A stretch of DNA of 64,000 bases. It comes from Natrinema amylolyticum. Lineage in GTDB: Archaea; Halobacteriota; Halobacteria; Halobacteriales; Natrialbaceae. The stretch covers positions 806,001-870,000 of the forward strand of contig NZ_JAIWPJ010000002.1 in NCBI RefSeq assembly GCF_020515625.1. Reading direction: 5' to 3'. Below are positions 10,588 to 20,385 of this stretch, piece by piece (the stretch's first letter is position 1; each line of letters opens with the position of its first letter). Both the position numbers and the translations under genes were made by a program. The notes below the pieces were generated by a model. That model saw only the letters and a program-made list of their open reading frames with translations, was not told where the DNA came from and did no database searches.

Positions 10588-11631
10588 ATGAGTACGGATA
10601 CTAACGCGGACGCCGACGACGAACCGACTTCCAAATGCGGAGCCTCGAGCAGCGAGAACGCCAGCAGCGAGGCGAGCACCGATAGCTCAAGCTCGAGCGG
10701 CTGCGGAGCCTCGAGCAGTACCGACGACTCGAGCACCTCCAAATGCGGTGCATCAAGTTCCAGTTCCTCCTCGTCCTCGAGCTGCGGTGCCTCGAGTTCC
10801 GACGACGAGAGTTCGAACGAGAAGGAGGTCGGCTCCACGGTCGAGGACTTCGACGCCGAACCGGGCCAGCTGAGCGCCGTCGGTCTCGGTCCCGGCCACC
10901 CGGAAGGGATGACCGATCGCGCGAAGACCACGCTGCTCGAGGCCGACCACATCGTCGGCTACACGACCTACATCGATCTCATTCCGGACGAGATCACCGA
11001 GGAGGCCGACGAGCTGTACGACACGCCGATGTGCGGCGAAGTCTCCCGGACCGAGGAGGCCATCGACCGCGCGCTGGCGGGCCACGACGTCGCCATCGTC
11101 GGCAGCGGCGACCCCAACGTCTACGCGCTCGGCGGGCTCGCACTCGAGATCCTCGAGTCCAAGGGCGCGACGGCGTCGATGGTCGACTTCGAGGCCGTGC
11201 CGGGCGTCCCGGCGGCCCAGTCCTGTGCGGCCCGGCTGGGCGCGCCGCTGGTGAACGACACCGTCTCGATCTCGCTGTCGGACCACCTCGTGCCGATGCC
11301 CGAGATCGAGTCCCGACTCCACTCCGCGGCCAAGGAGTCCTTCACGATCACGATCTACAACCCCTGGAGCCGCAAGCGCCGGGAGAACTTCGAGAAGGCC
11401 TGCGAGATCCTCCTCGCACACCGCGACGAGGACACGCCGGTCGGCATCGTCCACGGTGCCGGCCGCGACGACGAGCAGGTGATGATCACCGAACTCGGCG
11501 AACTCGAGGCGTTAGGCGAAGACGAGATCATCGACATGACGACGACGATCGTCGTCGGCAACGAGGACACCTACGTCTGGGACGACCGGATGGTCACCCC
11601 GCGCGGCTACGAGACGAAGTACGACTACTGA
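10588..11631 (+). CDS. CbiH paralogue with Cys/Ser-repeat N-terminal extension
   Basis: Residues about 90-347 form a second C17-methyltransferase-like domain: GLGPGHPEGMTDRAK, GSGDPNVYALG, VPGVPAAQSCAARLG, LVNDTVSISLSDHL and IYNPWSRKRRENF. The pair cbiH/cbiH2 is known from haloarchaeal cobalamin clusters as recalled. The first 75 residues are exceptional: four CGASSS motifs with Cys at 17, 39, 53 and 66, embedded in Ser/Asp-rich sequence including ten serines in a row. The motifs are related at DNA level too (TGCGGAGCCTCGAGC, TGCGGTGCCTCGAG). A metal-binding or cobalt-delivery role is an inference. Sixteen bases separate it from cbiH. Confidence 0.87.
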   Translation: MSTDTNADADDEPTSKCGASSSENASSEASTDSSSSSGCGASSSTDDSSTSKCGASSSSSSSSSSCGASSSDDESSNEKEVGSTVEDFDAEPGQLSAVGLGPGHPEGMTDRAKTTLLEADHIVGYTTYIDLIPDEITEEADELYDTPMCGEVSRTEEAIDRALAGHDVAIVGSGDPNVYALGGLALEILESKGATASMVDFEAVPGVPAAQSCAARLGAPLVNDTVSISLSDHLVPMPEIESRLHSAAKESFTITIYNPWSRKRRENFEKACEILLAHRDEDTPVGIVHGAGRDDEQVMITELGELEALGEDEIIDMTTTIVVGNEDTYVWDDRMVTPRGYETKYDY

Positions 11632-15705: not shown

Positions 15706-15821
15706 GCGGTTCGTTCGGTTCGGTCCGTTTTCCGCAGTGCGCTTTCTGTCACAACCTGTCGGCCAGTCGCATACGCAAGGCCAACCACCACAACGCTCAC
15801 TCTCGTCCGTGTTCTCGTATA

Positions 15822-17354
15822 ATGACCGAGTACGTAGAACATGACGGCACCGCGGAGCGTTCGGATTCCGAGAGGGTTGAGCGCTCCGCGGGCCGTCCCG
15901 ATGCAGTCGAACGTCCGGCGGGACCGCCACGCCGGGTGATGACCGACGGCGGGCAAGCGGAGATGGAAGAATCGGGAGACGACGAAAATGAGTCCGAGGG
16001 TGACGAAGACGCTGCAGGAGCGGATGAGGACGAATCGGCGGACGAAGCGGAAGGCGAAGCCGAGGAAGCGGCCGAAGACGAATCGGAATCCGAAGAGGCG
16101 GACGAGGCTGAAGCTGCGGAAGCAGACGCCGAAGGGGAGGCTGAAGAAGTCGACGAAGAGGAAGCCGAAGAAGAGGAGGCTGAAGAAGCCGACGAAGAGG
16201 AAGCCGAAGAAGAGGAGGCTGAAGAAGCCGACGAAGAGGAAGCCGAAGAAGAGGAGGCTGAAGAAGCCGACGAAGAGGAAGCCGAAGAAGAGGAGGCTGA
16301 GGAAGCCGACGAAGAGGAAGCCGAAGAAGAGGAGGCTGAGGAAGCCGACGAAGAGGAAGCCGAAGAAGAGGAGGCTGAGGAAGCCGACGAAGAAGGCGAA
16401 GCCGAGGAAGCGGTTGAGGAAGAGAGCGAAGACGAGGAAGCTGCGGAAGGCGACGAAGACGAGGCGGAAGCCGAAGACGAGGAGGAACGAGAGGATACCG
16501 GCGACCTCGTCGAAGACGACCGCGAGGAGGGTCACGCCGAGGACGCCGAGGAGGTCTACGAGGGCGACGACGCTTCCGGCGTCCTCCACCTCGATCTCGA
16601 CGGGCTCTTCTTGGACGTGCTCGGTCTCGAGGTCAACCTGAACCCGGTCCAGCTCGACGTGTCGGCGCGGCCGGGCGGGAACAACCTGCTCGGGAACCTG
16701 CTGTCGGCGGTGACGGGACTGCTGGACGGTCCCGGTGCCATGCTTGACAAAGTAAAGTCGCTCCTGAGCAAGCCGGTGGAGCTGCTGAAGCAGGTTCCGG
16801 GGAAGGCGAAAGAGGCCCTCAGTGGGCTCCTCGAGAAGCCAAAGGAGTTCCTCAGCGGGTTGCTTAGCAAGCCGAAGGAACTGCTCAGTAAACTCTTCGG
16901 CATCGGTGGCGAGGGAGCGGACGAGGAAACCGAGGGTGAGGAAGGCGAATCGGGCGGGGTGCTCTCGTCGGCCGCCGGCTGGCTGAAGGGGATCCTCACC
17001 AAGCCCGTGGAGTGGCTCCGCGGGCTCTTCGGTGGGGGTGCCGGCGAAGACGAGGCAGTCGAGGGTGAGGAGGCAGCAGACGAGACAGAGTCTGCAGAGC
17101 CAGCGGACGAGGAACCCGCGGAAGAAGGCGAAGAAGAGGCGGAAGAGGAATCGCCGGGCCCCCTCGCCAGAGCGGCCGGCTGGGTGAAGGAGAAGCTGTC
17201 CGGACTCGTCCCGAGCCTCCCGGTCGAGGAAATCGTGGCGACCATCGTCTCGCAGGTGATCGAACAACTGGTCGAACAACTCGAGCCCGATAGCGACGAG
17301 GAAGCGTCCGGCGGACAGCCGGAAGCGGCGTCACAGACGGAGGCCTCATCATGA
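15822..17354 (+). CDS. Highly acidic repeat protein with amphipathic C-terminal half, unknown function
   Basis: The 510-residue protein has three parts. Residues about 50-245 are almost entirely Glu/Asp/Ala, including six copies of a 13-residue unit (DEEEAEEEEAEEA) at 111-188. Then comes a conserved-looking block, LHLDLDGLFLDVLGLEVNL followed by QLDVSARPGGNNLLGNLLSAV, similar to blocks in some actinobacterial and haloarchaeal proteins. The end is a series of amphipathic helices with PKEFLSGLLSKPKELL-type repeats. There is no signal peptide. The start is uncertain: the first 39 residues are Arg-rich and contain a 10-bp inverted repeat, and ATG at 15939 or 15963 is plausible. Its stop overlaps the next gene. 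Confidence 0.75.
   Translation: MTEYVEHDGTAERSDSERVERSAGRPDAVERPAGPPRRVMTDGGQAEMEESGDDENESEGDEDAAGADEDESADEAEGEAEEAAEDESESEEADEAEAAEADAEGEAEEVDEEEAEEEEAEEADEEEAEEEEAEEADEEEAEEEEAEEADEEEAEEEEAEEADEEEAEEEEAEEADEEEAEEEEAEEADEEGEAEEAVEEESEDEEAAEGDEDEAEAEDEEEREDTGDLVEDDREEGHAEDAEEVYEGDDASGVLHLDLDGLFLDVLGLEVNLNPVQLDVSARPGGNNLLGNLLSAVTGLLDGPGAMLDKVKSLLSKPVELLKQVPGKAKEALSGLLEKPKEFLSGLLSKPKELLSKLFGIGGEGADEETEGEEGESGGVLSSAAGWLKGILTKPVEWLRGLFGGGAGEDEAVEGEEAADETESAEPADEEPAEEGEEEAEEESPGPLARAAGWVKEKLSGLVPSLPVEEIVATIVSQVIEQLVEQLEPDSDEEASGGQPEAASQTEASS
15850..15891. repeat. 10-bp inverted repeat near the start of the acidic repeat gene
   Basis: CCGCGGAGCG (15850-15859) and CGCTCCGCGG (15882-15891) are perfect arms 22 bases apart. 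If translation starts at 15939 or 15963, this is an upstream operator or mobile palindrome; if at 15822, it is within the coding sequence. Confidence 0.5.
16152..16385. repeat. Six tandem 39-bp repeats in coding sequence
   Basis: Six near-identical 39-bp copies start at 16152, 16191, 16230, 16269, 16308 and 16347, each beginning GACGAAGAGGAAGCC. Copies 1-3 end GAAGAAGCC and copies 4-6 end GAGGAAGCC. A seventh, diverged start is seen at 16386. The unit is 13 codons, so copy-number change keeps the frame. Confidence 0.9.
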
Positions 17355-17914
17355 GCGACGAATCCGAATCACTGACACAGCGGATTGACACGGAGAAGAT
17401 CACCGAGAACATCGACGTCGATCAACTGGTCGAGGGAACCCAGTGGGAAGACGAGATCGACGAGGACATGCCGCTCGGCGCGGCGCTGGGCGGCCAGGTC
17501 GGCGCGCTCGTCGGTCGCAAGGTCGGCGAGTCGCTGGGTCGGACGATCGGGAACATGGTCGTCGAAGAACTGCTCAGCAGCGACGAGGCCGAGTCGGCGG
17601 ACGAAGAAGAGAGCGAGGCGGACGAGGATGAGGACGAAGAAACGGCAGACGAAGACGAGGGCGAAGAAACGGCGGACGAGGAAAGCGAGGAGTCCGAAGA
17701 TGAAGAGTCGGCCGACGAGGAAAGCGCGGAATCCGAAGACGAGGAAAGCGAGGGTGACGACGCCGAGGCGGAGAGCGAGGACGAGAGTGACGAAGAGAGC
17801 GACGCTGAATCGGGCGACGAGGACGCGTCGGCCGACCAGGGTGACGAGGACGCTTCCGACGAGGACGCGGAGGGCGACGAAGAGGAGATGGAAGCCGAAG
17901 CCGAGGAGGAGTAA
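17351..17914 (+). CDS. Glycine-zipper protein with long acidic tail (paralogue A)
   Basis: The 187-residue protein starts MSDESESLTQRIDTEKITENIDVD. Residues about 40-70 form a glycine zipper: PLGAALGGQVGALVGRKVG and then ESLGRTIGNMVVEELL, with Gly every four residues. Such segments mediate helix packing or membrane insertion. The remaining 115 residues are a disordered Glu/Asp/Ser tail with loose SEDEESADEES repeats. Its ATG overlaps the stop of the preceding acidic repeat gene (ATGA), so the two are co-translated. The next gene encodes a recognisable paralogue. Function unknown. Confidence 0.75.
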   Translation: MSDESESLTQRIDTEKITENIDVDQLVEGTQWEDEIDEDMPLGAALGGQVGALVGRKVGESLGRTIGNMVVEELLSSDEAESADEEESEADEDEDEETADEDEGEETADEESEESEDEESADEESAESEDEESEGDDAEAESEDESDEESDAESGDEDASADQGDEDASDEDAEGDEEEMEAEAEEE

Positions 17915-17970
17915 GATCGTGATTCGGATACACCATACCACCGAACCGAGTCGCAGGCGAGGTGATCGCC

Positions 17971-18825
17971 GTGAGTGACGAGTCGGGACTGAAGAGCATG
18001 GTCGCGGAAGAGGTCAGTAACCAGGTCGACGTGGCCGATATGCTCGGCGACGGCAACATCGAGGACAGCATCGACGGCGGCGAACTCGGGGCCGCCGTCG
18101 GTCGCCAATTCGGTGAGCAGTTCGGCCGCCGACTCGGCACCGAGATCGGCCGCGAGATTCACGAGACGATCGACGAGGGCGTCGAGGAGGGGAAGGAACT
18201 CGGCGAACTGGGTTCGGAACTCCCGACGGCGATTCGCGACGCGTTCCGCGAATCGATCTCGGAGATGGAGGGCCGCGAGTCCCTCGAGTCGATGGCCAAA
18301 GGCGTTACCGACGGGAGCAGCGTCGAAGGTCTCCTGGACGGGATCGGCAGCGACGAGAGCGAGGAAACGGACGAAGACGAAGAAACAGCGGAGGAGGAGC
18401 CGACGGAAGACGAGGAGAGCGCGGAACCCGAAGACGAGGAAACCGAGGCCGAAGCCGAAGAAGAGGAGTCCGAAGGAGACGAAGCCGACGAGTCGGGCGC
18501 CAGAGAATCGGTCAAGGAGGCCGCCGGCAAGGCCAAGGAATCGGTCGAGGGAGCCGCCGGCAAAGCCAAAGAGACGGTGAGCGGAACCGACGAGGACGAG
18601 GACGAAACGTCCGTAGAGGACCTCGAGGACCTCCGGAGGGACACGCTCGAGGACTTCCTCGGGGTGATGTCCTACAGCGACCTGCAGTCGGTCGCGAAGG
18701 ACGTCGGCGTGAAAGCGAACCTCAGTCGCGAGGAAATGACCGACGAGATCATCAAGACGGTGACGGACGACGAGTCGGACGCCGACTCGGACGAGGAGTC
18801 GGAAACGGAGGCGGAAGCCGAGTGA
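17971..18825 (+). CDS. Glycine-zipper protein with acidic linker and SAP-like C-terminus (paralogue B)
   Basis: The GTG start at 17971 gives MSDESGLKSMVAEEV, parallel to paralogue A; a GTG nine bases earlier is possible. It has 284 residues. The zipper GGELGAAVGRQFGEQFGRRLG runs to GTEIGREI near residues 35-65. Next come a helical segment, an acidic linker, and two copies of an AGKAKESV-like motif reminiscent of LEA-type amphipathic repeats. The final domain (LEDFLGVMSYSDLQSVAKD, then LSREEMTDEIIKTV) looks like a helix-extension-helix/SAP-type fold, often nucleic-acid binding. Function unknown. Confidence 0.75.
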   Translation: MSDESGLKSMVAEEVSNQVDVADMLGDGNIEDSIDGGELGAAVGRQFGEQFGRRLGTEIGREIHETIDEGVEEGKELGELGSELPTAIRDAFRESISEMEGRESLESMAKGVTDGSSVEGLLDGIGSDESEETDEDEETAEEEPTEDEESAEPEDEETEAEAEEEESEGDEADESGARESVKEAAGKAKESVEGAAGKAKETVSGTDEDEDETSVEDLEDLRRDTLEDFLGVMSYSDLQSVAKDVGVKANLSREEMTDEIIKTVTDDESDADSDEESETEAEAE

Positions 18826-18904
18826 CCGACTGACGTCCACCGTTCTCGGTCGACCGAGCGCCGAACGACGCGACCAGCGGCGCGGTGATATCTGAGAGCT
18901 ACCC

Positions 18905-19795
18905 ATGAGCGACTCACAACTACGCGACCGAGTGCACGAGATACTGAACGAGGCTGACGCCTCGAGCGGGTCGATCGTCGGCGGGACCGACGCCGAGGAG
19001 GCGGACGGCTCCGCCGAGACGGACCTGCTCGAGACCGCCACCGAGGCGAGCGACCTCCTCGAGTCGGCCGATCCCGAGGAACTGCTCGCGGCGGTGGGGC
19101 TGGACACCCTCGAAGACGGGACCGAACCGGACTCGATTCCGGAGGCCATCGCCCGAGGCGAGCAAGAGAACCTCGAGGACCTCCAGCGGTTGCTTCACCT
19201 CTCGAAACTCGCCGACAGAGCGGACGACGGCAGTCTCGAGGGAGCCGTCGGTGACCTCCGAGCGGCGATGGGCGACGGGACCGAGTCCACCCCCGAAGGC
19301 GCGGAGAGCGAGTCAGTCGAGGCCGACGGCAGCGACTCGGCGGCGGCCGAGGGCGAATCGGACGCGACCGCGGGCGACGAAGACGACTCGAGCGCCGAAA
19401 GCGACGTCGGTGACCGCCTCCGCTCGGCGATGAGCGACTCGTTCGCGGACTTCGGCGACGAGGTCTCTCAGCTCAAAGAGCGACTCGAGTCAGCGAGCGC
19501 CGGAACCGCCGACGATGCGGGAGACGGCGCGGAGGGCGTCGACGAGACGGCCGCCGACGCCGAGTCCGCCGATGCGGCCGCGGATGAGGTCGAAGAGGCG
19601 GACGAGGATGAAGAGGCGGACACAGACGAGGACGACGAGGAGGGACTCCTCGGATCGGGGCTCGGCGGCGATCGGGAGCGCGGAACGGCCTCGGGAGGCC
19701 CCAGCCGCCATTCGACGATGGCACCGCCGCCGTCACAGCGGGCGGACATGCGGAAGGGGACGCGGCACTCGACGATGCCGGACAAGCACGGGTAG
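18905..19795 (+). CDS. Acidic protein with repeated RHSTM tail, unknown function
   Basis: The 296-residue protein follows the two glycine-zipper genes by 79 bases. The N-terminus is helical (MSDSQLRDRVHEILNEAD, LLETATEASDLLESADPEELL, NLEDLQRLLHLSKLADRAD). The middle and C-terminal thirds are disordered and rich in Glu, Asp, Ala and Ser. The end is unexpectedly basic and repeated: SRHSTMAPPPSQRADM, then GTRHSTMPDKHG, that is, two RHSTM motifs. This could be a short linear motif for binding a partner or membrane. There is no signal peptide or membrane segment. It probably belongs to the same operon and system as the three acidic genes before it. Confidence 0.7.
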   Translation: MSDSQLRDRVHEILNEADASSGSIVGGTDAEEADGSAETDLLETATEASDLLESADPEELLAAVGLDTLEDGTEPDSIPEAIARGEQENLEDLQRLLHLSKLADRADDGSLEGAVGDLRAAMGDGTESTPEGAESESVEADGSDSAAAEGESDATAGDEDDSSAESDVGDRLRSAMSDSFADFGDEVSQLKERLESASAGTADDAGDGAEGVDETAADAESADAAADEVEEADEDEEADTDEDDEEGLLGSGLGGDRERGTASGGPSRHSTMAPPPSQRADMRKGTRHSTMPDKHG

Positions 19796-19920: not shown

Positions 19921-20385
19921 ATGACGAGACACGTGAGCGAGGAACAGGTCCGACACTGGCTCGACGACACGGCGATTCGGAACGTGACGCCCCATACCGA
20001 CGAGGAGACGGCGTTCAATTTCCAGGTCGAACTCTCGCAGTTGCCGGTCCACGTCATCAAGGAAGACGAGTTCGGTCCGGTCCGAATCGTCGGCCGCAGC
20101 GGGTTCGACACCGAGCGGGCGAAGAACCTGCTTCGGGACGATCAGCGACGCGGCGAGTTGCTCGAGTACGTCGGGCCGATGCTGGCGGCGACGCCGGGAT
20201 TTTACACGTTTCTCGACGAAGAGGGCGTCTCCTGCCAATTGCGCGAGGCCGAGACGGTACAGGTAGAGTATCGGATCTACCCCGACGAAGCCTCCCAGCA
20301 GGCGCTGATGGACGGCATCATGGCAATCGCGACGAGTATGCGGTACGTCCGGAACGCCGTGGTAGCGGTCGCGGAGTCCGGATGA
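19921..20385 (+). CDS. DUF2299-like archaeal protein
   Basis: The 154-residue soluble protein starts MTRHVSEEQVRHWLDDTAIRN and has an alpha/beta pattern: FNFQVELSQLPVHVIK, FGPVRIVGRSGF, AATPGFYTFLDEEG and VEYRIYPDEASQQALMDGI. This resembles the archaeal DUF2299 family (a YbjN/secretion-chaperone-like fold), though the match is from memory and unverified. A TTATT box at 19892-19896, 25-29 bases before the ATG, supports an independent leaderless transcript. It is less acidic than its left neighbours. Function unknown. Confidence 0.65.
   Translation: MTRHVSEEQVRHWLDDTAIRNVTPHTDEETAFNFQVELSQLPVHVIKEDEFGPVRIVGRSGFDTERAKNLLRDDQRRGELLEYVGPMLAATPGFYTFLDEEGVSCQLREAETVQVEYRIYPDEASQQALMDGIMAIATSMRYVRNAVVAVAESG

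Follow-up and report, generated by a model that had tools for sequence, protein, structure and literature searches.

Four consecutive genes of the haloarchaeon Natrinema amylolyticum encode strongly acidic proteins, and the question that they raise is to which cellular system such a cluster could belong. They lie on the plus strand at positions 15822-19795 of the window, the 64,000-nucleotide stretch of DNA analysed here, and were originally singled out as the window's best candidate for an undescribed system because nothing nearby explains them. The surrounding sequence indeed gives no clue to their function; the comparison across genomes does, and it points to gas vesicles, the structures that let cells float.

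Organization of the locus

The four adjacent genes, called P1 to P4, and the block that precedes them are the following:

15765..15800, plus strand: promoter-like conserved block 5' of P1 (AGTCGCATACGCAAGGCCAACCACCACAACGCTCAC), near-invariant in an alignment of 17 genomes from the window's genus
15822..17354, plus strand: P1, 510 aa from 15822 or 471 aa from 15939
17351..17914, plus strand: P2, 187 aa; N-terminal domain with a glycine zipper, then an acidic tail
17971..18825, plus strand: P3, 284 aa; glycine-zipper helical hairpin, acidic disordered linker and SAP-like C-terminal domain
18905..19795, plus strand: P4, 296 aa; acidic, predicted GvpI paralogue with a tandem ST(M/V)P tail

P1 and P2 overlap in the ATGA at 17351-17354, and short gaps separate P2 from P3 (47-56 nt) and P3 from P4 (79 nt). 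Each protein has a predicted pI of ~4.05, and the Asp+Glu fractions of P1, P2, P3 and P4 (0.40, 0.48, 0.35 and 0.29) are well above the window median of 0.19, so that the four are unusually acidic even for a haloarchaeal host. The gene caller preferred a P1 start at 15939; the start is probably at 15822, since the in-frame ATG found there and 39 alignable codons ending in ..PPRRVMTDGGQAE are kept in most genomes of the genus. For P3, the GTG at 17971 is a more likely start than 17962 because most homologues begin there. The block at 15765..15800 is a putative promoter of the P1 operon, and the sequence immediately upstream of it is not conserved in the same 17 genomes.

The operon is flanked on its 5' side by genes for CbiX, DUF3209 and a PQQ-repeat protein, which include the cobalamin genes of the original prediction, and on its 3' side by the DUF2299-like gene that had also been pointed out, whose likeness to this family is weak and below cut-off (E 0.0035). 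The latter gene was weighed as a possible fifth member and left out: it is absent from many otherwise intact loci and therefore stands outside the unit.

Conservation of the four genes

Conservation was assessed in a sample of 391 haloarchaeal genomes, all from one class. The cores of P3 and P4 occur in 117 and 115 of these genomes, respectively, and nearly always 0.3-1.2 kb apart. Reading the neighbourhoods from ~100 genomes and 70 named records yielded 94 loci at which P1, P2, P3 and P4 follow one another in this order on a single strand, a number to be taken as loci and not as independent species, since some named records may duplicate species of the numbered genomes. Carriers with a species name include Natrinema versiforme, Natrialba asiatica, Natronorubrum bangense and Halohasta litorea. 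Most loci share the 4-nt P1/P2 overlap, and the spacing is operon-like. By gene order and spacing, P1-P2-P3-P4 is thus a predicted operon, and the proposal of a cluster is borne out by this recurrence. The flanks of the operon differ from genus to genus, which makes the unit independent of the cobalamin genes. Two variants were encountered: one genome retains gvp and P2-P4 and has lost the P1 core (G192), and at another locus a single protein corresponds to P1 fused to a P2-like zipper (L080).

None of the four proteins gave a match above cut-off in Pfam or NCBIfam, so that they do not dissolve into curated stand-alone families. Searches of the open literature turned up no account of the module, in agreement with its nomination as an undescribed system; a description in a subscription journal is possible.

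Association with gas-vesicle genes

Genomes were called gvp-positive from a match to PF00741 (162 of 391) and P1-positive from a profile of the P1 core. P1 was detected in 130 genomes, every one of them gvp-positive (130/130), and in none of the 229 gvp-negative genomes, these statistics not being corrected for phylogeny. Within the family of the window, 88 genomes carry both, none P1 only, three gvp only and ten neither; outside it the corresponding counts are 42, 0, 29 and 219, with an indexing offset of one genome between two tallies. Weak P3 matches in two gvp-negative genomes (G113, G198), which have no P1, were taken as chance.

The association extends to gene position. The P1 module adjoins the gvp cluster or sits inside it at 29 loci belonging to at least six families. 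At seven of these (L121, L122, L124, L125, L139, L179 and L180) it is located inside the gvpF-M operon and co-directional with it, P1 and a P2/P3-type gene being inserted between gvpF-G(-H) and gvpI-J-K-L(-M). Halocatena pleomorpha carries P1 and a P3-type gene within its gvp operon. P1 is found near gvpA/gvpO in many lineages and is unlinked in the family of the window: in the window genome the gvp cluster is on a different contig from P1-P4, and the distance from gvp to the operon is ~0.8 Mb in G302 and ~1.1 Mb in G143.

The genus of the window contains three gvp-negative genomes (G028, G092 and G307), none of which has an intact module. In a genus tree built from 11 flanking proteins, some inner nodes of which are weakly supported, they are placed on three different branches, and each has intact genomes as its relatives; the pairing of G307 with G143 and the group formed by G092, G034 and G004 received full support. 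The traces left behind differ in each case. The module is cleanly excised with intact flanks in G307, a truncated P1 and P3 fragments persist as a pseudogene remnant in G092, and the module is gone along with part of the neighbouring genes in G028. As read from these genomes, gvp and P1-P4, although at unlinked loci, have been lost together three times in the genus. The module is also absent from G046, a gvp-negative genome of another genus.

One could argue that such an association is ecological or phylogenetic and that the module is unrelated to gas vesicles, as one family holds most of the carriers and linkage of the module to gvp is the exception. This explanation is hardly tenable in view of the in-operon positions, the GvpI paralogue described below, the three independent co-losses in one genus and the count of P1-positive, gvp-negative genomes, which is zero out of 391. 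From genome comparison, it is close to certain that P1-P4 belong to the gas-vesicle system.

P4 and the GvpI protein

The RHSTM tail of P4, noticed from the outset, is real and conserved in homologues:

19706..19792, plus strand: RHSTM..RHSTMPDK tail of P4, equivalent to the tail of GvpI, which reads HSTMPSQKSN..RNSHSTVP in the classical basic form

In profile comparison, P4 aligns with the extended GvpI of gas-vesicle clusters, tandem ST(M/V)P tail included (hhalign 99.2%, E 2e-19). Acidity alone is not the cause of this match, since the equally acidic P1 and P2, used as controls, fail to match extended GvpI (hhalign 0.1% and 5%). The link to classical basic GvpI runs through the tail, by which extended GvpI matches it (97.8%), and a direct comparison of P4 with classical GvpI gives a weaker match confined to the tail (56%, E 1e-4). 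P4 is, by these profile comparisons, a GvpI paralogue. It is matched by extended GvpI across its length with the ST(M/V)P pair, and the tail is present in classical basic GvpI as well. In contrast to GvpI, P4 is acidic and lacks the terminal RIYGRRF motif: of the GvpI tail pattern NP-A-STMP..STVP..YGRRF it has the ST(M/V)P pair and no terminal YGRRF. Its gene is part of the P1-P4 operon and not placed between gvpH and gvpJ; a separate extended GvpI fills that gvp position and coexists with P4 in the same genome. Where it was recognised in two GvpC clusters, GvpI measures 113 and 140 aa, and it is mostly 250-390 aa long in P1-type clusters and in clusters with neither P1 nor GvpC.

A paralogue of GvpI, together with the seven loci where P1 and a P2/P3-type gene adjoin gvpH and gvpI inside the gvpF-M operon, could suggest that P1-P4 are chaperones acting with GvpF-M in early assembly or nucleation. 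Elsewhere, however, the module adjoins gvpO/gvpA or forms a distant operon of its own with a conserved upstream block, and we consider this role very unlikely.

Glycine-zipper proteins P2 and P3

A glycine zipper and a SAP-like end had been pointed out; the zippers of P2 and P3 and the SAP-like end of P3 are likewise conserved in homologues:

17474..17560, plus strand: glycine zipper of P2 (LGAALGGQVGALVGRKVGESLGRTIGNMV); G51, G55, G59 and G63 invariant in 37 sequences
18076..18186, plus strand: glycine-zipper helix of P3, aa 36-72; G48, G52 and G56 invariant; pLDDT ~90
18613..18783, plus strand: SAP/Rho_N-like three-helix domain of P3, aa 215-271; pLDDT 93-95 over most of its length

P2 and the N-terminus of P3 are paralogous (hhalign 97.8%, E 1e-12, 69 columns). 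P2 shares the GxxxGxxxG pattern with the glycine-zipper families PF13488, PF05433 and PF13441, its matches to all three remaining below cut-off (E 0.05-0.1), and neither a signal peptide nor a membrane helix pair was seen in this comparison. Structure prediction, suggested in the original prediction as a check, was informative for P3, where AlphaFold2 modelled with confidence both a helical hairpin and a three-helix C-terminus, joined by an acidic linker without order; it was poor for P1 (pLDDT 60). A Foldseek search with P3 returned several SAP-domain structures among its matches, none of them significant and none with an E below 1, and in Pfam SAP_new25 was weakly matched by two and Rho_N by one of 37 P3 members. 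A common SAP-like end in P3 and a divergent GvpC is unsupported (2.2%).

P1 and the absence of GvpC

P1 is composed of an acidic N-terminal region, an invariant core of ~50 residues, amphipathic helices and a C-terminal helix:

16578..16733, plus strand: invariant core of P1 (GVLHLDLDGLFLDVLGLEVNLNPVQLDVSARPGGNNLLGNLLSAVTGLLDGP); 16 invariant columns across six haloarchaeal families
16734..17024, plus strand: amphipathic helix region of P1 (KPVELLKQ.., EKPKEFLSGLL, SKPKELLSKLF, KPVEWLRGLFG), from hydrophobic moment and AlphaFold2 helices

The helical hydrophobic moment reaches 0.35-0.45 along most of the latter region, where the low-confidence AlphaFold2 model also places helices; this model was too poor for a fold search and was set aside. 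P1 has no Pfam match, the GvpC repeats of PF05465 included, and homology to GvpC, the protein that classically strengthens the shell, is rejected (hhalign 0.1%). Both proteins are nevertheless hydrophilic and acidic, with helical, partly amphipathic stretches, and both are present with gvpA; P1 adjoins gvpA/gvpO in many lineages and fills the gap of gvpC-less clusters. Unlike GvpC, P1 has an invariant core and no repeats of 32-40 residues, and the two were never found together in one genome. With this architecture P1 could be an analogue of GvpC that binds the surface as a coat.

The exclusion was measured with PF05465 (Halo_GVPC) on 80 gvp-positive genomes; PF01304, the cyanobacterial-type GvpC repeat, found nothing above cut-off and is the wrong model for haloarchaea. 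A true multi-repeat GvpC is present in 14 of the 80 genomes, none of which carries P1, against 49 P1 carriers among the other 66 (Fisher p 2e-7, not tree-corrected). The exclusion is partly phylogenetic, and two genera (g29 and g41) contain both P1-type and GvpC-type genomes. Seventeen of the 80 genomes are negative for both P1 and PF05465. One of them, G238, carries a divergent GvpC-like gene, and some of the 17 may possess a divergent GvpC; in eight others that were read, GvpI is extended and the gvpC position is empty.

The gvp cluster of the window genome (L087) consists of 11 genes, A, N, O, F, G, H, I, J, K, L and M, with none of gvpC, gvpD and gvpE. Its gene content is that of the Natrialba/Natrinema-type vac cluster in the available text of PMC3403918 and PMC4390858, where GvpC-less clusters of these genera were noted earlier as puzzling and where an unlinked P1-P4 operon goes unmentioned. 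Natrialba, Natrinema and Halopiger have gvp clusters that lack both gvpC and gvpDE, and several species of this type are recorded as Vac- (PMC4390858), so that gas vesicles have perhaps not been seen in any carrier.

The shared lack of gvpDE in the window's cluster and similar ones (PMC4390858) leaves room for P1-P4 as regulators that control gvp expression in the place of GvpD/GvpE, the SAP-like domain of P3 binding DNA: SAP folds often bind nucleic acid, and SAP structures are among the Foldseek matches of P3. Yet GvpC clusters apparently devoid of gvpDE, clearly so at L155 and probably at L102, also lack P1, and further clusters with GvpC and no gvpDE are published (PMC4390858), so that P1 tracks GvpC and not gvpDE. 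Moreover, P1, P2 and P4 show no DNA-binding feature, the proteins are strongly acidic, and the upstream regions of P1 and gvpA/gvpF, compared by eye, have no promoter motif in common. A regulatory role is thus quite unlikely.

Proposed function

We propose that P1-P4 are probably an accessory gas-vesicle module in which the P1 coat replaces GvpC, P2 and P3 oligomerise to form a bridge and P4 serves as an additional GvpI. Carriers would build the usual GvpA shell without GvpC. The P1 core and amphipathic helices would bind the outer face of the GvpA ribs and strengthen or shape the shell, the long acidic tail of P1 extending into the salt-rich cytoplasm. P2 and P3 would pack via their glycine-zipper helices into oligomers cross-linking this coat, while the SAP-like end of P3 would contact other Gvp proteins. 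P4 would act alongside the extended GvpI in the control of vesicle length or assembly. As P1 is not homologous to GvpC, the replacement rests on exclusion, location and general architecture. Halobacterium GvpC binds GvpF, GvpH, GvpI and GvpL (PMC9372576), and a GvpI paralogue accompanying a GvpC analogue therefore makes sense.

The original prediction of a membrane-associated or condensate-like assembly survives in part. Some kind of assembly is plausible, since both the glycine-zipper helices and the disordered acidic tails are in keeping with a coat on the shell or a bridging layer; membrane association fails because gas vesicles, to which the module belongs, are protein shells and not membranes, and as stated the functional guess is unsupported. 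The same idea of an assembly, the multivalent combination of long acidic disordered regions with oligomerising helices, and the reported control of vesicle clustering by GvpU in Bacillus would suit a condensate-like layer that clusters, tethers or positions finished vesicles with no strengthening of the shell. The mutual exclusion with GvpC points instead toward GvpC's own role, and we hold such a layer to be unlikely.

Significance for haloarchaeal gas vesicles

Gas vesicles are described as the product of gvp genes that form one closed, clustered set and among which gvpC supplies the coat. The P1 module is present in 130 of the 162 gvp-carrying haloarchaeal species of the sample, and real GvpC was detected only in P1-free genomes. 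We see an even chance that haloarchaea possess another means of reinforcing or shaping the shell, not homologous to the first and made of a P1 coat, glycine-zipper proteins and an extra GvpI instead of GvpC, usually encoded off the gvp cluster and found in about four-fifths of the gvp-carrying haloarchaeal species sampled. A review of 2022 describes gvp genes as always clustered (PMC9501494). The module bears on the puzzle of the Vac- clusters of Natrialba, Natrinema and Halopiger that are devoid of gvpC and gvpDE, and expression of such gvp clusters alone may have missed a needed part. P1-P4 would also offer new outer-shell proteins for the engineering of vesicles, in ultrasound imaging and antigen display, where GvpC is the main handle at present.

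Other gvp clusters and a putative divergent GvpC

Haloarchaeal gvp clusters of a third type (loci L141-L148) encode the extended, long form of GvpI and lack a GvpC gene; no P1 or P3 homologues were found in the genomes carrying these clusters. The adjacent gvpN gene, which encodes an AAA ATPase, is missing from the vicinity of many GvpC-less clusters (L072, L078, L098, L100, L106). In G238, a genome scored negative for both P1 and the haloarchaeal GvpC family PF05465, a GvpC-like protein is encoded at:

L102, 9684-10934: 416-aa protein, gene between gvpA and gvpN

Its helical repeats make it look like a divergent GvpC that the PF05465 search fails to detect, ending in a SAP-like region rather than the zinc-finger type usual in GvpC.

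The P1 core outside the module

The P1 core motif (LDLLGLxVxLxxIxLDxTAxxGxGNLLGNLLCAVAGLL) is also encountered at the end of secreted proteins:

L133, 8691-9476; L137, 8648-9226; L138, 7790-8401; L140, 8347-8967; L221, 8638-9225: secreted proteins ending in the motif

The haloarchaeal ones bear Tat-like signals; another of these proteins is from Salipaludibacillus (Bacillota). The core seems to be an uncharacterised exported domain taken over by P1.

A possible regulator site at gvpA, and neighbours and partners of the module

A possible regulator site, kept in related genomes, is repeated upstream of gvpA in the organism's own gvp cluster; none was seen upstream of P1:

L087, 7700-8083: CTTGCA(A/G)T(A/C)GCAG repeats, gvpA promoter region

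The DUF2299-like gene following P4 (window 19921-20385) was ruled out as a module member by its variable presence among related genomes. A cobalamin-pathway protein (window 10588-11631) carries an N-terminal CGASSS-rich (Cys/Ser) repeat.

A single protein joins P1 to a P2-like glycine zipper:

L080, 7133-8998: 621-aa P1-P2 fusion

At four loci (L127, L200, L214, L220), P1 and P2/P3-type genes adjoin a divergent lone gvpI copy, with neither gvpA nor gvpF nearby. This association supports the view that P4 and GvpI can stand in for each other as partners.
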